IMG/VR virus record: IMGVR_UViG_3300006080_000308
Span: 1-34,222 of that record
Source: a virus
DNA: 34,222 bases
Reading direction: 5' to 3' (one strand)
In this document: positions 5,279 through 28,799 of the stretch, piece by piece
Numbering within the stretch: position 1 is the first letter of the stretch
Layout of the letters: each line of letters begins with the position of its first letter
Made by a program: the position numbers and the translations under genes
The notes under the pieces: model-generated
Database searches by the model: none
What the model was told of the DNA's origin: nothing
The model's input: the letters and a program-made list of their open reading frames with translations, nothing else

Positions 5279-6940
5279 CTATAAAATGACATTGGTTAAT
5301 GTGGCGACATCATGCAGGTTGCCGACTTGTGTGCCTGTTTCGCCGTAGGAATTATTGTCACCGCAGGCATCAACACGCCCGTCGTCATACAAAACGCCAA
5401 GCCCCCATGAGGCAGTGCCTTGGCCATAACAATTCCAGTCCTCGATCACGCCGGACTGCCCAAGCACGCGTTGGAACAGATTATTTGCGCCTGCAGTTGA
5501 ATTGATGCCCAGATTGGCGTTGCCTGAATAACCAGCAGCCCAAAGCGCATCGCCAGCTTGTAAGATACAGCCCTCATAACTGCACCCACCGCCGAAAGAG
5601 GCCTTGCTCACATTGCCTTGGAAATCACCAGCTGGCATTTGCGGAGAAAGCTGGTTTGTGGTGTTGCCCGTTCCCATCTGGCCGTAACCATTATTTCCCC
5701 ACAGGTAGAGATTACCTTGATCGGTAATAGCCCCAGATGATGGATAACGGCCATCGCCTGCAAAAATATCGGTAAAGATTTCTGTGCTTGTGATTTGAGT
5801 GAAGCTGGTTCTTTGCGTTGTATCACCAAGCCCAAGTTGGCCATATCCGTTATAGCCTGCCGCCCAAATCGACCCATCGGCCAGTAAAACCAAGCCATGG
5901 CCTGTTGGTCCAGCGCCATCTGTTCGATAACCACAGGATGGAACGGCTTTAGTCGCATTAGTGAAAGCTGGATGTAACATCGGGGTTTCTCGGTTAGTGG
6001 TATCCCCAAGCCCAAGTTGACCATTGGCATTCCACCCCCAAACCCAGAGCGATCCGTCATCTTGAATTGCATAAGCTGTGTGCGGTAATCCTGACACTGC
6101 AACATCAATAATATTGGTCAGCGCCCCGCATCGAATGGGCGTATATTGATTGGCGGATGTCCCGTTGCCCAGATTACCGTTACTGTTAATCCCGCAGGCA
6201 TAAACGCGCCCGTCGGTCGTTAAAAAATAAGCGCAGGCATGGTCGTAATAATTCGGGCGACCGGGAATGACTTTGGCGATTTGGATATTGTTTTGAACGA
6301 AATACTCAATCCGCTTGGCAATGGCGCGGTTGACGGTATCGCCATGTCCTAGCTGCCCATAATTATTATATCCCCATGACCATACTTCACCATCAGCGGT
6401 TAAGGCATAATGCTGCATACCGCCTGAGAACACATCGACAAAGCGCACATCGGGATCTTCGGTTGAAACACGGTTCGGTAGGTAAATATGCGCGCCGCTT
6501 GGATCACCATTGGAATAATTCCCGCCATAACCGCAGGCTTTGATTGTGCCGTCCGCCATCAGATAAACCCGCGTGTACCAACCGCCCATGCCATTGACCT
6601 TGGCCAGCTTCCAGACACGGCGAGATGGATCAAGCGATTGATCGCGCCAAGCAGGTTGATTGCCAACCATCTGCAAGACTTGAGCATTACATCCACGGGC
6701 AAGGCGCACAGGAATAGCGCCGTTATGAATCAGCAGATCACCTTCTTGGGAAAGCTGATCCGTACCCGCCGCCATTAAATCCCAATCATCGCCTTGAACA
6801 GGTGTGACGGCAGAAACTGTGCGTTTGGCGATATAGCTTGAACCTTGGTAGGAAACGGCATCATGGCGCACGTAATTGGTGGCACTGTTATAAGCACCGC
6901 GCCAGTTAATGCGGATATTGCCCAGATCAATTTGTGTCAT
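5279..6940 (-). CDS. RCC1-repeat (beta-propeller) tail adhesin with N-terminal carbohydrate-binding-like module
   Basis: The 553-residue protein likely recognises the host surface. Residues about 12-60 resemble a small CBM5/12-type chitin- or carbohydrate-binding module (W..GAYNSATNY..HDAVSYQGSSYIA...P...DDWDLMA). From about residue 130 to the end there are eight RCC1-like segments of the form WxWGxNxxGQLGxGDTxxR, for example at 187-200. RCC1 proteins fold as seven-bladed propellers. The underlying DNA is also repetitive, with blades sharing stretches such as CCAAGCCCAAGTTG. The start has AAGGAG eight bases upstream. It lies between minor tail genes. RCC1 blades are familiar from eukaryotic RCC1 and from scattered bacterial surface proteins, and are unusual as a main tail fibre. 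Confidence 0.85.
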   Translation of the reverse strand: MTQIDLGNIRINWRGAYNSATNYVRHDAVSYQGSSYIAKRTVSAVTPVQGDDWDLMAAGTDQLSQEGDLLIHNGAIPVRLARGCNAQVLQMVGNQPAWRDQSLDPSRRVWKLAKVNGMGGWYTRVYLMADGTIKACGYGGNYSNGDPSGAHIYLPNRVSTEDPDVRFVDVFSGGMQHYALTADGEVWSWGYNNYGQLGHGDTVNRAIAKRIEYFVQNNIQIAKVIPGRPNYYDHACAYFLTTDGRVYACGINSNGNLGNGTSANQYTPIRCGALTNIIDVAVSGLPHTAYAIQDDGSLWVWGWNANGQLGLGDTTNRETPMLHPAFTNATKAVPSCGYRTDGAGPTGHGLVLLADGSIWAAGYNGYGQLGLGDTTQRTSFTQITSTEIFTDIFAGDGRYPSSGAITDQGNLYLWGNNGYGQMGTGNTTNQLSPQMPAGDFQGNVSKASFGGGCSYEGCILQAGDALWAAGYSGNANLGINSTAGANNLFQRVLGQSGVIEDWNCYGQGTASWGLGVLYDDGRVDACGDNNSYGETGTQVGNLHDVATLTNVIL

Positions 6941-13132: not shown

Positions 13133-14035
13133 TTATCCTTCGAGCTTTTCCTTCAAAGCCTCGTAATGGTGTCTATGCTTATCAGGGTCATCTTTTTTCA
13201 ACTTTCGTAAATTCTGTAACTTCCATTGCACAGCAGGGAAGCGCTCAAAATCGTAAATGCTCCAATCCGGCTCACAATTCTCAACACTTAGCAAAAATGC
13301 TTTATCTTTAGCTGTAAGGTTTGTATTGACGGTTTCGACAAGCTGTTCACGCGTTTTTTCAAAGTCATCGTAAGTAAACTCGACATCGCTCATGCCTGTA
13401 AATTGGTTCTCCATAGCTTTACGTTGATCTAGGGAGTTTGGCACAAGCACTTCATGGAACGGACGTGGACTAGAAAGTAAACACAGCACAAAGCCCACGC
13501 GAATATCATCCGAAAAACCTTCATTTTCCATCAAGAGCTTTACATCAAACAAATCTCTGGGATGTTGACGATCCAGCGCCGCACATATTTTACCGCCATA
13601 AAGCTGACCAAGTGGAACAACCTGTATCACCGATGATGTATCATACATTTCTTGCGCTTTATCACAGAGTATCCTTTTTTCAGGCGCTTCAATCGTACCG
13701 CGCCCGACGAGATTAACTTCCAGTTTGATTTCTTCTCCATCTGAGCGAATGACGAGTTTACCGATTTCTGGTTTATACAAAATTTGAGCGTTTGGCAGAA
13801 CACCTTCGATACGTGCTTTAATACGCCCCAGCGCATCAGCAATATTTTTTAATGTTGTCTGCCTATCTTCAAGTGGCAGATACGTCAGATCAATATCAAC
13901 CGATAAACGCGGCATGTTTCGTACAAAAAGATTGATCGCCGTACCGCCATGTAATGCAAAGCATTTTTCCTCTGCCACATAAGGAAGAACCCTCAGCAAC
14001 AAGCGAACCTGATTTTTATATTTCTGGTTGTTCAT
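13133..14035 (-). CDS. AbiEii/AbiGii-family nucleotidyltransferase toxin (first AbiE system)
   Basis: This is the toxin of a type IV toxin-antitoxin and abortive infection system. AbiEii proteins are GTP-binding nucleotidyltransferases of the DNA polymerase beta-like fold. The 300-residue protein has the HGGTAINLF motif (residues 29-37) followed by DID (47-49), which bind nucleotide and metal. Downstream are KIEL-type strands and the RDLFDVKLL segment typical of the family. The ATG at 14035 is preferred over a TTG nine bases earlier. It overlaps the antitoxin gene by 20 bp, as AbiE genes normally do. It lies inside the tail operon, between Z-like and U-like genes, which is unusual. Confidence 0.92.
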   Translation of the reverse strand: MNNQKYKNQVRLLLRVLPYVAEEKCFALHGGTAINLFVRNMPRLSVDIDLTYLPLEDRQTTLKNIADALGRIKARIEGVLPNAQILYKPEIGKLVIRSDGEEIKLEVNLVGRGTIEAPEKRILCDKAQEMYDTSSVIQVVPLGQLYGGKICAALDRQHPRDLFDVKLLMENEGFSDDIRVGFVLCLLSSPRPFHEVLVPNSLDQRKAMENQFTGMSDVEFTYDDFEKTREQLVETVNTNLTAKDKAFLLSVENCEPDWSIYDFERFPAVQWKLQNLRKLKKDDPDKHRHHYEALKEKLEG

Positions 14036-14798
14036 TTTTTTCAAATTCTTTCGGTACGGTTATCTTATATTTATCTATGTACACGCCGTTTTTAACAAAG
14101 CTTCGTGTGCCTGATCCTAAATCCACATTTGATAGATCAACAAAATCCAGCCAAGGGTGCTTAAATTTATCTGCCAAGTAAAGGAACAGGCGTTTAACTT
14201 TTATGGATGAGCAATTCTCCAGCAATTCTTGAACCGATTTAGGTCTTAAATCGTTCATACCTTCCATTAGCTCGTAACATTCAAAGAACTCTTGGTGCTT
14301 CGGTGCAAGATATAAACACTCCAGCATGGCGCGTGCAGGAGAAGATATCTTTACAGTGAAGTTATTCCGTTCAAAATCAACAAGCCCCATATCTGCAGGC
14401 AGAAACGAGGTCGTGTAATAATCTATCTTTGTTTCCCATGATTTATTCTTAAACCAAGCTGGCAGGTTTTCTTTTTTGCTTCCAAGCAAAACTGCTCGAC
14501 CTGCTGCCATATCTATGTAATGTGCTCGACCCTGTAAGGATAAAGCCGTGCGCCCACCAGCATGCACAGATAGCCCAGCTTGATTTTGAAGTGCATATAA
14601 TCCACCATGATAATCAACATCATCACCAGCGCGGATAACTGCGCCCGACCCTATAGAAGACACCCATTTGCTTTTCTTGTATTGGCTTAAAAGCTGATTT
14701 GAGACGCCATTATCTGCAAGCCACGATGACAGGTAAACCGTCCCTGTTGGCCAGTCTTTTAGTAATTTGTTTATTTTGGCTTCATTTTCTAAACTCAT
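14016..14798 (-). CDS. AbiEi-family antitoxin / transcriptional repressor (first AbiE system)
   Basis: The 260-residue protein is the partner of the AbiEii toxin. AbiEi antitoxins neutralise toxicity without direct toxin binding and also repress their own promoter through an N-terminal winged helix. The N-terminal part (LLKDWPTGTVYLSSWLADNGVSNQ) looks like that DNA-binding domain. The GGLYALQNQAGLSVHAGGRTALSLQG segment (about 65-90) and SSPARAMLECLYLAP (about 150-165) are typical of AbiEi of the long, C-terminal-domain type. There is no Shine-Dalgarno, and a promoter lies so close that the mRNA may start at the ATG. Confidence 0.9.
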   Translation of the reverse strand: MSLENEAKINKLLKDWPTGTVYLSSWLADNGVSNQLLSQYKKSKWVSSIGSGAVIRAGDDVDYHGGLYALQNQAGLSVHAGGRTALSLQGRAHYIDMAAGRAVLLGSKKENLPAWFKNKSWETKIDYYTTSFLPADMGLVDFERNNFTVKISSPARAMLECLYLAPKHQEFFECYELMEGMNDLRPKSVQELLENCSSIKVKRLFLYLADKFKHPWLDFVDLSNVDLGSGTRSFVKNGVYIDKYKITVPKEFEKNEQPEI

Positions 14799-21928: not shown

Positions 21929-23953
21929 TTATAAATACGGATCGTCAGCCTTGATTGCCCTACGTTGCGGCACTCTTGGCTTTCGTTTCGGTTTTTGTGT
22001 TGTTTGCCCAGCTTGTGCCTGCTGCGGTGTAGCTGGCACGGGCATTTCCACGCCCTTGGTTGGAATAATGACCTCTTGTCCGAGACTTTTTTCCAGTGCG
22101 CGCCATTTATAATCAGACATGCGATCCAACCCAAAAATGCTGGCTGCTGCCCGCGCATAAACACGACAATCCAAGGTTTCGTTGTTACGGCTTGGGTCTT
22201 TCTCCCAAACCTGCTTCGGAAATCCGCGCACCACACGAGTGATGCAACGCTCTGCTGTCAGCTGTTTAAAAAACTCCTCACCATATTGCGGGAAGTGACA
22301 ACTGCCGGGCGGATAGGCCACGCCATCTTCCAGATCTTTATCGGTCGGCCATTCCAGTTTGAGCCAGCGATAAAGCTCCATCTTCACCACGGGGCCAGAG
22401 ACGTTCCAAACTCGCAATCCACGGCGTTTACCACCCGTATCAGCTTTTGAAACACTCAAGATGAGCGCTGTGTCGCGTTCCTGTCCTTTAATCGCTACCA
22501 CGGTGCGTGGTTGACTGGCACGAGCGCCAGAACCGCCCCAAACGGCCTGAGGATGCTGGCGCACAAAGGCGTAAACATCCTGCGTGGCATAACCAGAATC
22601 CACCGCCATCACCCGAATGGGGAGGCTGTGGCCAGATTCATGAAGCCAGTCACGATCTAATACCTCAACCGCGAGGCGATCCCATGTTTCCTGGCGGGCG
22701 GTATCACCATCAATGATGATGTAATCCACCGACCAGTTTTGTTTATGACGACCCCAAGCCACCACTTCACATTCAAGACGGTCTTTTTGCACGTCCACAC
22801 CAGCGGTGAGGAATAAACCGCCCATCGGCACAATGCCTTGGCTGTATTTTTCACGGCGCTCATAAATGCGTTGCCACTCAGGCGCTTCGGATGATTCCTC
22901 GTAAGGTTCACCCAGCACTGTATTGACAAAACCCTTCATTAAATCGGGGTTGCGTTTGGCTTCTTCGAACAGCGTTGCCGCATCCGACCATGAAAACCAA
23001 CCCACAGGGCTATAAAGCGATGACAAGTGATAACCAACTGTGCCATCCACACTTTCAGCCGTTGCTCGCCATTCGCCTTTCGACAATAGCGAGGTTTTCT
23101 CATGATTGTGCATGAGATGCCCGCAAGATTCACAAGCGTATTTTGCCTCTTCCGGTTTACCTTCAGGCCAGCGCAACTGCGTAAAGCGCAAATACTGGTA
23201 ATGGCCACATTTTGTGCAAGGAACAAAAAAATAGCGCTGATCGCTTTTTTCAAACTCACGCTGCACACGAGATATTCCTTTTACTGTTGGCGTACTCACC
23301 ATAAAAATCTTACGGCGCAGGCGAAATGTTGCGCTTCGGCGTTCTGCCAGCAGAATCGGATCACCTTCGCCGCCAACATCACCGGGATACGCATCAATCT
23401 CATCCATAAACAAATAACGTGCAGGCATGGAACGCAGACCCGCCGCCGAATTTGCGCCAGTCATAATCAATAGACCACCTTCAAATTCTTTACTCAGGAT
23501 CGTATTCCCGCTGTCACGTTCCCGCGCAGGCTTCACACGCTCGCGCAAGGCTGGCGTTTCCTGTAATAGTGGCTCAATTCGCTGTTTGGAATTACGTTTT
23601 GCCAGCTCCACCGTTGGCGACACCGCCATCATTGGCCCCGGCGCCATATGGATGATATAGCCAATCCAGTTATTGCCGGCTTCTGTCCCGCCGACCTGTG
23701 CGCCTTTCATGAACACAATGCGTTGCGCGGACGAGCTGGTCGACAGTTGATCCATGATCTCTTTTAAGTATGGCGTGCGCGATGTTTTCCATTCCCCGGG
23801 TTCTGCCGAAGATTTACCGGATAACAGGCGATATTTATCAGCCCATAATGAAACGTCGTAATGTGGTTCGGGAGTGAAGCTTTTGAGGTAGACGTTCTGA
23901 ACAAATGCCGCGTCATACTCAATCGAAGTTGAGTTTTCCCTCTCCAATGTCAT
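21929..23953 (-). CDS. Terminase large subunit, lambda gpA family
   Basis: This 674-residue motor and nuclease cuts concatemers at cos and pumps DNA into the procapsid. The Walker A-like KGAQVGGTE lies at about 83-91, and Walker B with the catalytic acid (LFMDEID) at 181-187. A zinc-binding CTKCGHYQYL...CESCGHLMH segment follows around 255-285. The nuclease part begins near GVDVQKDRLECEVVAWG and contains further acids. The C-terminus is basic. It overlaps the small subunit gene by 35 bp and has a GAGGGAG site. Its GpA-family membership predicts cos packaging with defined ends. Confidence 0.96.
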   Translation of the reverse strand: MTLERENSTSIEYDAAFVQNVYLKSFTPEPHYDVSLWADKYRLLSGKSSAEPGEWKTSRTPYLKEIMDQLSTSSSAQRIVFMKGAQVGGTEAGNNWIGYIIHMAPGPMMAVSPTVELAKRNSKQRIEPLLQETPALRERVKPARERDSGNTILSKEFEGGLLIMTGANSAAGLRSMPARYLFMDEIDAYPGDVGGEGDPILLAERRSATFRLRRKIFMVSTPTVKGISRVQREFEKSDQRYFFVPCTKCGHYQYLRFTQLRWPEGKPEEAKYACESCGHLMHNHEKTSLLSKGEWRATAESVDGTVGYHLSSLYSPVGWFSWSDAATLFEEAKRNPDLMKGFVNTVLGEPYEESSEAPEWQRIYERREKYSQGIVPMGGLFLTAGVDVQKDRLECEVVAWGRHKQNWSVDYIIIDGDTARQETWDRLAVEVLDRDWLHESGHSLPIRVMAVDSGYATQDVYAFVRQHPQAVWGGSGARASQPRTVVAIKGQERDTALILSVSKADTGGKRRGLRVWNVSGPVVKMELYRWLKLEWPTDKDLEDGVAYPPGSCHFPQYGEEFFKQLTAERCITRVVRGFPKQVWEKDPSRNNETLDCRVYARAAASIFGLDRMSDYKWRALEKSLGQEVIIPTKGVEMPVPATPQQAQAGQTTQKPKRKPRVPQRRAIKADDPYL

Positions 23954-24419
23954 TTAAATGCTCCCTCACATAGCGCTCTAACGCCTGATGAAGAGCGTGT
24001 TCATCCACTCCCAATTCAGCAGCCATTGTCGCTGAGACACGCGCAGGCCAATTCATCCAGCTGTCCCGAACCTGCCGCCCCAGTTTGTAAACCTGCGCTT
24101 TGACTTGATCTTTATTAATCAGCTGACCTTTCTTCTCCTGCAGGGCAAGCTGGGTCAGCTGGGCTTTGTAAAGCTCGTGAGCAGTTTTGATCTTTGTAAA
24201 TGTTGGTTTACCGTTTGCGGCGGGGATATTCTCGGCCATGGCGGGCAATCCCGTATTGATTTTGGCTTCATCCGTATTTTCTTTCCATTCCTGATCCGCG
24301 CGATCAACATCAATTGTGCCGTCATCATTGGGGGTGATGCGTCCTGTTTTAATCGCTTTACGCACCGCGCCCTCGGTCACGCCACGCAACGTGGCGTATT
24401 TTCTGATTGAAAGTCCCAT
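23919..24419 (-). CDS. Terminase small subunit, Nu1-like
   Basis: The 166-residue protein has an N-terminal winged helix (IRKYATLRGVTEGAVRKAIKTGRI, about 5-28), as in lambda gpNu1, which binds cosB. A linker and a helical C-terminal half (about 80-160, with QEKKGQLINKDQVKAQVYKLGRQVRDSWMNWPARV) would contact the large subunit. It directly precedes and overlaps the gpA-like gene. The terminase recognition site is expected upstream, in the region separated here by the methyltransferase and nuclease genes or beyond them. Confidence 0.9.
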   Translation of the reverse strand: MGLSIRKYATLRGVTEGAVRKAIKTGRITPNDDGTIDVDRADQEWKENTDEAKINTGLPAMAENIPAANGKPTFTKIKTAHELYKAQLTQLALQEKKGQLINKDQVKAQVYKLGRQVRDSWMNWPARVSATMAAELGVDEHALHQALERYVREHLNDIGEGKLNFD

Positions 24420-24502: not shown

Positions 24503-24802
24503 ATGACAAAACAAAGCAAAAAACCAATCGAAACGACTGATACCAAGCCAGCCGAGACCGTTGTAACAACAGCGGAAACCACCGCCGAGCCAGCGCCAAA
24601 AATCACCAAGAAGGCCATGGTTGAGCAACTGCTTAACTCCGATAAAGGCGCAAAGATTGAGGAACTATCCAAACACACTGGCTGGTAAGCCCATACTGTG
24701 TGCGGGCATCTCTCCATCCTCAAAAAAGCAGGCGCAGGAATTATCAGCGAACGTGTTGATGGGGTGCGGCGTTACAAAATTTTAGATAAAGCTACTGCCT
24801 GA
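24503..24802 (+). pseudogene. DUF3489 protein interrupted by one in-frame TAA
   Basis: The frame starts at ATG 24503 with an AAAGGA site and reads a Thr/Lys-rich linker, then ITKKAMVEQLLNSDKGAKIEELSKHTGW. A TAA follows at 24686-24688. The same frame continues without further stops as AHTVCGHLSILKKAG...VDGVRRYKI to TGA at 24800-24802. Intact DUF3489 proteins have Gln at this point (GWQ.H.VRG), so CAA to TAA is the simplest change. DUF3489 proteins carry a winged-helix-like domain and are usually neighbours of DUF2924 and serine recombinases, a module found here 9 kb away. Its 3' end overlaps the end of the nuclease gene on the other strand by 21 bp. Confidence 0.8.
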
Positions 24803-25792
24803 AACTTTTTTTGATATGTCTTCTATGGAATCTTCTGGCAAAATTTTATCATCGGATAACTCTTGTAAATCAAAGTATCTGTGACCACGAATACCGCCAG
24901 AAGATTTTTTCTCGATATTAACTTCATAAAGCTCGCCCAAGAGGTAATATCTTTCTAATCCCTGATTAAGATCATAATAATTAGTCGCCGAGATCACATC
25001 TCGGATTTTATCTATGTCTTCTTGTGATACGCATCCATATTCTTTTTCAAAGATCAGGCCATCATTTTCAGGTTTGCAAATGCAAGTCCCAAGAATTTCA
25101 GCAATGTGGGTAATCTTTTTATTGTTATAAATTCCAATAAACGGAACATGCGCTTTAGAAGATTTGGAAGATTGTTCGTAATATATGCTGTATTTAATAT
25201 TCTCATCCCAAGATGTTCCGCATGGGAAGGCCACCATTTCATATGGATTTGGTAACATTCCGTCTGATCTTAAGAATGTCTCATAATCTTCAATTATTTC
25301 CTGTAAATCAGTTTCATGTTCTGGAAAAATACCCTTGTCGTTTAGCAAGGACACTAATTCTAAATATGTAATGGTCGTATAATGAATACCAACTTCATTA
25401 CAAACACGTTCAAATTCTCTGATAACTGCCTCATTGGGTTGCTTCTTTGCCAATCCTATTATTACTGCAGAACCTTTCGGAAAGTTGGATTTTACAACAC
25501 TATCAACATGACGTTGAATTTGTTCTAAATAAAGCTCGCCGTCGGCTTTTGCTTCAATGTAAATGCTTAATGGGGTTTGACGAATGTACCCGTCAGGAAT
25601 ACTGCTTTGCTCTCTGATTTGTTGGCTAAACACCAATCCAATATCAATTTGAGCATCAGATATAATTTCTTTCAAAAATTTTTCAAAGCGCAACGGATTA
25701 TGACGATAGATATGCCGGAACATAAGCATCGTATTATTGGTGATATGATTTTCTCGTTGCGAGTATTTTTGAAAATATGAAATTTCTGCCAT
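24782..25792 (-). CDS. PD-(D/E)XK superfamily nuclease-like protein coupled to the methyltransferase
   Basis: The 336-residue protein begins with RENHITNNTMLMFRHIYRHNP, an N-terminal helix pattern common to a group of PD-(D/E)XK nucleases. It then has IPDGYI and IYIEAKADGELYLEQIQRH (about 65-95), which together supply the D-x(n)-ExK core. A following strand GSAVIIGLAK and a helix complete the fold. The C-terminal half has no recognised domain. The ATG lies 9 bp after the methyltransferase stop with a GAGGG site overlapping that end, so the two are co-expressed. A DNA-cleaving partner of the methyltransferase is plausible. The fold is a visual call; the activity is inferred. Confidence 0.68.
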   Translation of the reverse strand: MAEISYFQKYSQRENHITNNTMLMFRHIYRHNPLRFEKFLKEIISDAQIDIGLVFSQQIREQSSIPDGYIRQTPLSIYIEAKADGELYLEQIQRHVDSVVKSNFPKGSAVIIGLAKKQPNEAVIREFERVCNEVGIHYTTITYLELVSLLNDKGIFPEHETDLQEIIEDYETFLRSDGMLPNPYEMVAFPCGTSWDENIKYSIYYEQSSKSSKAHVPFIGIYNNKKITHIAEILGTCICKPENDGLIFEKEYGCVSQEDIDKIRDVISATNYYDLNQGLERYYLLGELYEVNIEKKSSGGIRGHRYFDLQELSDDKILPEDSIEDISKKVSGSSFI

Positions 25793-25801
25793 TACGTTCC
25801 C

Positions 25802-27085
25802 TCAATTAACTTCATCTACTTTACTTTTTTTCCGAGATTTAGTCAATTCATCAAACTCTGTTTCTGTAGAATTTAAAACGGCTTTCTTCCCCGTAAATTC
25901 TTCCCAGCGTTTGACGATCACATCGACATATTTCGGATCAAGCTCAATCAATCGGGCGCGACGGCCTGTTTTTTCGCAAGCGATCATGGTTGATCCTGAA
26001 CCGCCAAACGCATCCAGCACAATATCCTTGGTTTTGCTGGAATTGTGAATGGCACGTTCTACCAACTCCACAGGCTTCATCGTCGGATGCAAATCATTTT
26101 TGACGGGCTTGTTCACAAACCAAACATCGCTTTGATCCCGGGCACCACACCAAAAATGCTCATGCCCATCTTTCCATCCATAAAGGATCGGCTCGTATTG
26201 GCGTTGATAATCTGCACGCCCTAGCGTGAAGGTGTTTTTTGCCCAGATGATAAAGGTTGACCACTTGCCACCAGCGCCAACAAAAGCACCATGCAACCTG
26301 TGAAGCTCCGATGAGCTCATGCACACATACATTGCGCCTTTGCACACCATCATCAGGTTGCTGCAAACATCATAGAGAAAATCGCCAAAGCCTTCGCCCA
26401 GATTATCATTTTGGATCGGGCGGGCTTTGCCACGCATTTTGTCTTTCATGGAATTGGCGTAATTGACGTTATAGGGCGGATCGGTAAACACCATGTCGGC
26501 CAGTTCTTCACCCAACAGGGCGTTGTAGCTGTCGATCATTGCGGAATCGCCGCACAGCACTTTATGATCGCCGCAAATCCAAATATCGCCGGGGACACTG
26601 ACAGGCGTTTCCGGTGCTTCGGGTGCGGTATCCTCATCGGTCAAACCGCCAGAGGCATTGGCATCATCCAAAAACAGATTGTCCAATTCCTCAGCATTAA
26701 AGCCCAGCAGATCAATATTGAAATCCAGATCCTCCAGCGCCGATAATTCCTCGCGTAGGAGGCTTTCATCCCAACCGGCATTTTCTGCGATTTTATTATC
26801 GGCAATTACCAGTGCACGACGTTGCGCTTCATTCAAATGTTTCAGGCGAATGGTTGGCACGTTTTTCATGCCCAGCAGTTTTGCCGCCATCAAACGGCCA
26901 TGCCCAGCGATGATGATATTATCCTCACCTAGCAGAATAGGATTCACAAAACCAAATTCCGTCATGGAGGCGGCAATTTGCGCCACTTGCGTATCAGAAT
27001 GCGTGCGTGCATTTTTGGCATAAGGGATCAGCTCATCAACCGATACATGCTCGATTTTTAAGTCTTTTGCTTTCGCATCAGTCAT
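25802..27085 (-). CDS. ParB-domain DNA methyltransferase (beta-class N4/N6)
   Basis: The 427-residue protein has a ParB/sulfiredoxin-like N-terminal domain (about 10-120, with ELIPYAKNARTHS and GHGRLMAAKLLG). A linker follows, then a SAM-dependent methyltransferase. The catalytic TDPPY is at 201-205 and the SAM-binding AFGGSGST is near 359-366. The DPPY-first order places it in the beta class, which modifies adenine N6 or cytosine N4. Such fusions are common in prophages and often protect phage DNA. It lies directly upstream of the nuclease-like gene. The C-terminus is lysine-rich. The leader carries repeats of TGCGTAC. Confidence 0.9.
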   Translation of the reverse strand: MTDAKAKDLKIEHVSVDELIPYAKNARTHSDTQVAQIAASMTEFGFVNPILLGEDNIIIAGHGRLMAAKLLGMKNVPTIRLKHLNEAQRRALVIADNKIAENAGWDESLLREELSALEDLDFNIDLLGFNAEELDNLFLDDANASGGLTDEDTAPEAPETPVSVPGDIWICGDHKVLCGDSAMIDSYNALLGEELADMVFTDPPYNVNYANSMKDKMRGKARPIQNDNLGEGFGDFLYDVCSNLMMVCKGAMYVCMSSSELHRLHGAFVGAGGKWSTFIIWAKNTFTLGRADYQRQYEPILYGWKDGHEHFWCGARDQSDVWFVNKPVKNDLHPTMKPVELVERAIHNSSKTKDIVLDAFGGSGSTMIACEKTGRRARLIELDPKYVDVIVKRWEEFTGKKAVLNSTETEFDELTKSRKKSKVDEVN

Positions 27086-27484: not shown

Positions 27485-28420
27485 TTATACCAGAATAGCT
27501 ATAATTTCTTTCAAAGAGTTTAGAGCATCATCAAACGATATTTGCTCATCCTCATCAGCATAAGACATGTTCTGAACAAACTGCCTATATTCTTCTCGAT
27601 AGGCGTCGTCAGTTGAAAGCATTTCATACGCTTTCGTTAAACGGTCTACAATTTTCATATTGGCTATAATATCACCACCACGGCGACTTTGATCACTTTG
27701 CAGTGACTGTTGAGCGCAGCCAATAAAAATATCCTTTTCTTCCCAAATTGAGGATTTAAGAGCGGCTAAATCGTGGAGATGGCGGATCATTGTAGGATCA
27801 TCATTATCCGAATTCCTGTCTCTAACAACCACTCGCCATGTTAATGCACTCACTTTATCAGAGGCTGTTTCAATAGGTGAAATGCAGGTTATTTGTGTTT
27901 CTGGATCGTCACCTGATAATTCGGACACGATAGATCGTACATCCCGCTTTACAAGTGGTAATCTGTGTTCAGCAAATGTCATTTCTAGTTGTAGGTATGG
28001 GCGCAAGAACTCTTGTTCAAAACCCATGTCATATTGGACTGGGGCTTTGAAGAAACGATGGCTGTCACCACGCTGAACTTGTTCATCTTCAATTCTAAAG
28101 CGTGGATCTGATATGATATGCGAGATGACAGATTTTCTAAACGAGCGCCTACCACCAACAGATACTTGATCCAGTGAGCATAAAATGAAATCCAAATCTT
28201 CTGAGAAGCGTTTTATTAAACCAAAACCTTTTGACAGACTGGTTCCACCGGAGAAAACGATGTCAACACGGCGGTCATTTTCAAAATTGCCAATAGATTT
28301 TAGTAGCTGTACAGCATACCAATCTTTTTCAATGAACGCAGGATCAATACCTGTTTCAGCAGCAGCTTCAAGAATGACGTCACGATTAAGCATATTGTTC
28401 AAAGGATACGTACTTTCCAT
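27485..28420 (-). CDS. AbiEii-family nucleotidyltransferase toxin (second AbiE system)
   Basis: The 311-residue protein (from ATG 28420) carries EKDW (31-34), then FSGGTSLSK (56-64) and EDLDF (74-78), the nucleotidyltransferase core of AbiEii/AbiGii toxins. Its N-terminus, with RDVILEAAAETGIDPAFIEKDWY, is typical of the group that pairs with DUF6088 antitoxins. It differs from the toxin at 13133-14035 throughout, so the two are not a duplication. It overlaps its antitoxin. The frame is open to a GTG at 28456, and a further ATG lies at 28393; none has a clear ribosome-binding site, so the exact start is uncertain. A terminator follows at 27295-27333. Confidence 0.9.
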   Translation of the reverse strand: MESTYPLNNMLNRDVILEAAAETGIDPAFIEKDWYAVQLLKSIGNFENDRRVDIVFSGGTSLSKGFGLIKRFSEDLDFILCSLDQVSVGGRRSFRKSVISHIISDPRFRIEDEQVQRGDSHRFFKAPVQYDMGFEQEFLRPYLQLEMTFAEHRLPLVKRDVRSIVSELSGDDPETQITCISPIETASDKVSALTWRVVVRDRNSDNDDPTMIRHLHDLAALKSSIWEEKDIFIGCAQQSLQSDQSRRGGDIIANMKIVDRLTKAYEMLSTDDAYREEYRQFVQNMSYADEDEQISFDDALNSLKEIIAILV

Positions 28421-28799
28421 TATAACCAATTTTACGAGAAATACGTCCTTTAACACCGATCACACGCCCTGTTGGAACTTGTGTTGACTTTCCTTCATTG
28501 TAAAATTTTTGTGCCTTTGACGGCATGATCTTAATGCCCAATTTATTTAGGGCTTCTTGAGCTAACTCTGGCAGAGGCTTTTCAGGTATTGTTTTCCCGC
28601 TGAGTGCAGATTGTTTGGCACGTGCATATACGCCATAGCCAATATTAATCAATAAGCCTTTTTGTACCAACTGTCGTAGAATACGACCAACTTGGTCATA
28701 GCCCCCAATGTCTTCAAAATCTTGGCGCACAAAGACGCTTAACGCGCTACGTTTTACGCGGTAAGTGATTTTTCCTTCTAATGTGTTTTTAATCGCCAT
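28386..28799 (-). CDS. DUF6088 / AbiEi-type antitoxin (second AbiE system)
   Basis: The 137-residue protein is the antitoxin partner and probable autorepressor. The pattern ALSVFVRQDFEDIGGYDQVGRILRQLVQKGLLINIGYGVYARAKQSALSG is that of DUF6088 with its N-terminal winged helix (about 18-70). The C-terminal half (80-137) is strand-rich. It starts with an AAGGA site directly downstream of two 17-bp direct repeats that may be its operator. It overlaps the toxin gene. Confidence 0.9.
   Translation of the reverse strand: MAIKNTLEGKITYRVKRSALSVFVRQDFEDIGGYDQVGRILRQLVQKGLLINIGYGVYARAKQSALSGKTIPEKPLPELAQEALNKLGIKIMPSKAQKFYNEGKSTQVPTGRVIGVKGRISRKIGYNGKYVSFEQYA

Follow-up and report, generated by a model that had tools for sequence, protein, structure and literature searches.

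The 336-residue protein encoded directly behind a ParB-domain methyltransferase gene in the window (the whole stretch of DNA analysed, a virus record of 34222 bases) is probably a defence nuclease that works on its own and travels with the phage as exchangeable cargo, in a slot beside a constant methyltransferase that has no partner. Since the place is empty or taken by other defence genes in related viruses, an interchangeable weapon against rival phages is likelier than the cutting half of a matched restriction-modification pair. The features on which the analysis draws are the following:

21929-23953, minus strand: terminase large subunit TerL/GpA (Pfam GpA_ATPase 1.4e-97, GpA_nuclease 3.9e-91)
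23919-24419, minus strand: terminase small subunit TerS, conserved gene to the right of the slot (89-99% identity among the nearest phages)
24503-24802, plus strand: convergent DUF3489-like gene that bounds the slot on the right; a TAA (24686-24688) interrupts its frame
24782-25792, minus strand: predicted PD-(D/E)XK nuclease, 336 aa, cargo gene (family alignment, AF2 model, BFVD match)
24785-25261, minus strand: C-terminal domain of the nuclease, residues 178-336, PUA-superfamily-like fold by Foldseek, possible base reader
25262-25792, minus strand: N-terminal nuclease domain, residues 1-177 (strand order in the model, PDDEXK_4 matches)
25547-25555, minus strand: E80-A-K82 (ExK), predicted catalytic motif, E and K invariant in 50/50 relatives
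25592-25594, minus strand: D67 in IPDG, expected to bind metal, invariant in 50/50 relatives
25802-27085, minus strand: ParB-domain N6/N4 DNA methyltransferase, 427 aa, left border of the slot, constant phage gene

The gene pair and its junction

The preliminary description of this DNA had reported a methyltransferase and a nuclease gene, 9 bp apart and sharing a translation signal, just upstream of the terminase genes, and the sequence bears out this arrangement. Both open reading frames lie on the minus strand at the positions given above, the methyltransferase first, with TerS and TerL directly downstream of the pair; TDPPY and AFGGSGST are found in the methyltransferase and IPDGYI and IYIEAK in its neighbour. 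Read on the minus strand, the methyltransferase ends with GAA GTT AAT TGA, followed by GGGAACGTA and the nuclease ATG, at the distance of 9 bp, and a Shine-Dalgarno-like GAGGG overlaps the methyltransferase stop codon, making the two genes translationally adjacent. A promoter scan around the pair gave a score below the chance mean. The cargo gene is most likely transcribed along with the methyltransferase, and the nuclease would probably be translated off that transcript from its own Shine-Dalgarno sequence at the methyltransferase stop.

The methyltransferase is a full-length member of phrog_498 (1.5e-162) and also matched PADLOC MTase_II (4.2e-174) and Pfam N6_N4_Mtase (1.8e-27), with ParB_N (8.8e-6) falling just under the cut-off. 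In the 80 best-scoring relatives from viral contigs, among the matches listed, DPPY was kept throughout (80/80) and FxGxG in all but one (79/80), and the location before the terminase genes is the same in related phages. At the other end of the pair, the DUF3489-like gene shares 21 bp with the 3' end of the nuclease gene; its homologues are uninterrupted at the same position in the phage contigs L004-L008 and L001. An antisense DUF3489 gene between methyltransferase and TerS is conserved across many phages, and in the literature searched DUF3489 receives a single passing mention.

Several other genes of the neighbourhood were recorded on the way. Immediately upstream of the ParB-methyltransferase lies an AbiEi/AbiEii pair (window 27485-28799, minus strand; PADLOC 1e-51 and 6e-84), a second cargo, of defence or toxin-antitoxin type, next to the slot. 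Another AbiEii (13133-14798, minus strand; PADLOC 7.6e-118) stands among late structural genes next to a 260-aa, probably AbiEi-like partner, so that this one phage carries two AbiE-type pairs, both AT-richer than their surroundings. A 553-aa protein from the tail-gene region (5279-6940, minus strand) contains W-G-x-N-x-x-G-Q-L-G-type repeats resembling RCC1. In two related contigs the gene directly upstream of the ParB-methyltransferase is C5-cytosine methyltransferase-like (L001:2760-3780 and L280:1-1113), that of L001 being split across two overlapping frames.

Nuclease family, active site and predicted domains

Searched alone, the 336-aa protein had no match among curated Pfam, NCBIfam or PHROG families and no real match among Pfam and PDB sequences; a profile search of the PDB with the nuclease family returned chance-level matches only. 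Relatives were therefore sought over genome contigs with a degenerate DNA pattern for the N-terminal motif F-Q-x-Y-x3-E-N-x-hydrophobic-T-x-N. The scan gave 97 loci, and 57 of those examined encode nuclease relatives, from Bacteroidota, Proteobacteria, Bacillota, Fusobacteria, Nitrospirota and others. A protein that belongs to so wide a family is not a chance open reading frame; moreover, synonymous sites are saturated between the genes of the window and L001, another phage with the same pair, and the proteins are still 54% identical.

The claim of a PD-(D/E)XK nuclease held up well, and on family conservation together with the predicted structure this assignment is secure. D67, E80 and K82, which lie in columns outside the scan pattern, are invariant in all 50 aligned relatives. 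E14, N15, T18 and N20 are invariant as well; they were selected by the pattern, and their conservation is thus not independent. Structure prediction of the full protein, which the preliminary description had recommended, yielded an AF2 model (pLDDT 90.5) with a nuclease core fold, the N-terminal domain running helix-helix-strand-strand-strand-helix-strand. The best BFVD match of the model was a viral PD-(D/E)XK protein over the full length (326 columns, E 4e-17), and the best match among PDB structures was EcoT38I (7edb; E 0.0058, prob 0.87), at a low TM-score (0.22) and 13% identity over 201 columns. EcoT38I is a conventional restriction enzyme. Among known families, Pfam PDDEXK_4 (PF14281) was matched by 5/50 relatives at E <=0.01 (best 9e-6), and the likeness resides in the active-site region, where the ExK...QxxxH/Y stretch aligns to PDDEXK_4 members in a profile alignment; the window protein itself, however, falls below the model, and its C-terminal half lies outside it.

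We also considered PD-lambda-5, a system of prophages (PMC9519451) that has been characterised as RM+Abi in compacted form and carries a methyltransferase label, as PADLOC reported a weak match to nuclease residues 26-77 (E 0.0058). The match to PD-Lambda-5_A spans 52 residues, about 50/472 positions, and was rejected as too weak and too short for membership; none of the 50 family members matched PD-lambda-5 at E 0.001.

The N-terminal PD-(D/E)XK domain would cut nucleic acid, and the C-terminal domain appears sensor-like. Modelled alone, residues 178-336 gave a pLDDT of 92.0 and a pTM of 0.86. Within this domain N198, Y204, Y222, K225, the position equivalent to T291 and K295 are conserved without exception or almost so. 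The top PDB match of this domain by Foldseek was TTHA0113 (2dp9; E 0.011, prob 0.91), the second was the EVE-HNH nuclease VcaM4I (6yex; E 0.068, prob 0.80), and lower matches comprised 1wk2, 2z0t, ASC1 and YTHDC1 (E near 1); none passed E 0.001. Profile comparison by hhalign gave a probability of 0.8% against an EVE profile and no support against an ASCH profile built of three sequences, one with a misread frame. TTHA0113, 1wk2 and PH0355 are presumably all ASCH-type; with a single ASCH protein as query, a PDB sequence search listed none of the three. Since no structural match reaches E 0.001 and the EVE profile is null, the PUA-like call is a lead and not a result: the predicted domain weakly resembles modified-base readers of the PUA superfamily.

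Nucleases fused to sensors of the PUA superfamily have been described before (PMC7897488). VcaM4I, described in the same work, and the window protein have in common a nuclease plus a PUA-like domain within about 310-340 aa. They differ in domain order, with EVE before HNH in VcaM4I and PD-(D/E)XK first in the window protein, and unlike in VcaM4I the PUA-like character of the window domain is weak and lacks sequence-profile support. Going by the models, it is possible, if rather doubtful, that the C-terminal domain senses a modified base and that the nuclease is a Type IV-like modification-dependent enzyme.

The slot between methyltransferase and terminase genes

Across viral contigs the gene order recurs as methyltransferase, slot, DUF3489 on the opposite strand, TerS and TerL. 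The nearest phages encode methyltransferases 91-94% identical to that of the window, and the DNA flanking the slot is 87-94% identical on both sides. L005, L007 and L008, with an empty slot, have 371-379 bp between the methyltransferase stop and TerS; in the window, L004 and L006, each with one gene inside, this stretch measures 1336-1383 bp. Homology is lost about 45-80 bp before the methyltransferase stop and regained at the 3' end of DUF3489. The methyltransferase tail differs with the cargo; L004 and L006 have a common tail type and different genes. In the branch of L001, TerS overlaps the end of the methyltransferase in L023, L025 and L027.

Occupancy was assessed among the matches listed, in contigs with a methyltransferase at least 77% identical together with L273 and L280. 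Most of these 20 near-relative contigs have nothing at the site; in seven it is occupied, by six gene types. The cargo is the predicted PD-(D/E)XK nuclease in the window, AbiH in L006 (PF14253, 5.3e-50), DUF3644/HEC-08 in L020 (2e-87), a HAD hydrolase in L014 and a membrane protein in L280; L004 (2762-3781) and L273 (154-1173) share a 339-aa protein that had no family match and contains an RNSSEH (RNxxxH, HEPN-like) motif. Of the six types, two (AbiH and DUF3644/HEC-08) match families of defence proteins, and for two others (the HAD hydrolase and the membrane protein) no role in defence is known.

The slot hence shows the marks of a prophage defence hotspot, namely one and the same site, interchangeable unrelated genes with defence genes among them, and empty alleles. 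Prophage P2 has two such hotspots, one of them placed immediately between the genes for the replication endonuclease and the portal (PMC9519451), and these resemble the slot in their fixed position between conserved phage genes and their differing defence genes. The slot, unlike those of P2, belongs to another phage group (lambda-type portal, GpA terminase), is bordered by the ParB-methyltransferase and DUF3489/TerS, and holds cargo whose start overlaps or abuts the methyltransferase stop. No fitting description of a methyltransferase-terminase hotspot was found in the literature searched. The methyltransferase itself is an orphan phage ParB-methyltransferase (phrog_498) without a fixed restriction partner, in line with the earlier remark that such enzymes are usually partnerless: in the nearest phages the place behind it varies, being empty or filled by unrelated genes.

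Two further explanations for a nuclease at this site were weighed. A free-standing homing-type endonuclease, cutting empty copies of the slot to spread into them, would account for an intergenic slot beside the terminase genes that has gained a single gene and is empty in relatives, but six unrelated gene types occupy the slot, most without a recognised DNA nuclease domain, and some nuclease relatives occur in type I RM and CBASS neighbourhoods; we regard homing as a very remote prospect. An accessory nuclease with a role in the phage cycle (packaging, host DNA degradation or recombination) rather than in defence would fit a gene adjoining the terminase genes on the same strand. Such a role is nevertheless highly improbable, given that nearly all close relatives keep the terminase genes and lack the nuclease, that some bacterial relatives have defence neighbours, and that the base composition of the nuclease gene is divergent (GC 35.1%, GC3 30.3%, versus 46.7% for the window and 47.5-51.4% for the methyltransferase, TerS and TerL).

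Nuclease and methyltransferase apart

The preliminary description had seen in the two genes a new restriction-modification or anti-competitor system. Read as a Type II-like pair, the ParB-methyltransferase would methylate the sites that the nuclease would cut, so that prophage and host are protected and rivals are cut. The pair is narrowly saved from being confined to this genome, as one divergent phage, L001, shares it. The two nucleases are sister sequences (support 0.998) and, as given above, 54% identical, TerL being only 53% identical; in L001 the methyltransferase and nuclease genes overlap by 8 bp. Order and tight spacing are thus alike in two divergent phages, both phage nucleases found stand directly behind a ParB-methyltransferase, the Shine-Dalgarno sequence overlaps the methyltransferase stop, and the best PDB match is a restriction enzyme, all of which speaks for a pair. 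With two cases, joint function and a shared history of the slot are inseparable, and coupling of the nuclease to the methyltransferase may exist within the small branch of the window and L001.

Beyond that branch the two genes part. Alignment-based scans of viral contigs for the nuclease retrieved L001 again and nothing else, tblastn in phage records gave no match, and tblastn in plasmids gave one distant Macrococcus protein, in two near-identical records, with no methyltransferase annotated nearby. In one draw of 385 Alphaproteobacteria genomes, the class of G001 (the Roseobacter genome that contains locus L109), the methyltransferase (E <=1e-60) was present in 55, the nuclease in 4 and both in 0. 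BLAST of the neighbours of the 57 nuclease relatives against the methyltransferase gave 0 matches, and the genomes of seven close bacterial relatives contained a methyltransferase relative of substance in one case only, 40% identical and on another contig. The co-occurrence survey consequently went against the proposed pair (0 overlap in 385 genomes, 0/57 relatives beside a ParB-methyltransferase), as did methyltransferases more than 90% identical without the nuclease in L004-L009 and unrelated genes filling the same position. A dedicated restriction-modification pair found no support, as the nearest phages have nothing or unrelated genes behind the methyltransferase and bacteria carry the nuclease family without this methyltransferase. 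Because the partner is not constant, we reject the pair as the main reading and consider it improbable; the anti-competitor role proposed alongside it is plausible.

The neighbours of the bacterial relatives are of other kinds. Type I RM-type clusters hold five of them (L125, L127, L129, L147 and L161), as a raw count. In four of these loci the relative lies directly behind HsdM-HsdS-like genes, and in L125 the HsdM-like gene comes after it; specificity subunits among the scanned neighbours numbered four. The relative at L109 adjoins a CBASS SAVED-HNH effector. As separate observations, DUF262-like neighbours were read from sequence at L135 and L136, and the relatives behind HsdM-HsdS-like genes are possibly an accessory gene of type I restriction systems.

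Under the preferred reading of a self-contained defence nuclease, which the low GC of its gene also favours, the protein likely cuts the DNA of invaders and keeps other phages out. With a sensor for a modified base, the nuclease could dispense with a matched methyltransferase and move between contexts, and it would then need to leave alone the mark set by the adjacent methyltransferase. That the widespread PD-(D/E)XK and PUA-like family is a single-gene modification-dependent restriction enzyme, tolerating the mark of the upstream methyltransferase when carried as phage cargo, is a further step that we consider unlikely on balance. If true, such an enzyme is found within clusters of type I restriction genes, next to CBASS and as the cargo of phages.

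None of the curated models of Pfam, NCBIfam, PHROGs or PADLOC fits this broad nuclease family. A methyltransferase-nuclease neighbourhood can mimic a restriction-modification pair though the methyltransferase alone is constant. The slot adds a defence-cargo site beside the terminase genes, in a phage group distinct from the much-studied P2 and P4 elements, and the nuclease family that it brings into view could include modification-dependent enzymes.
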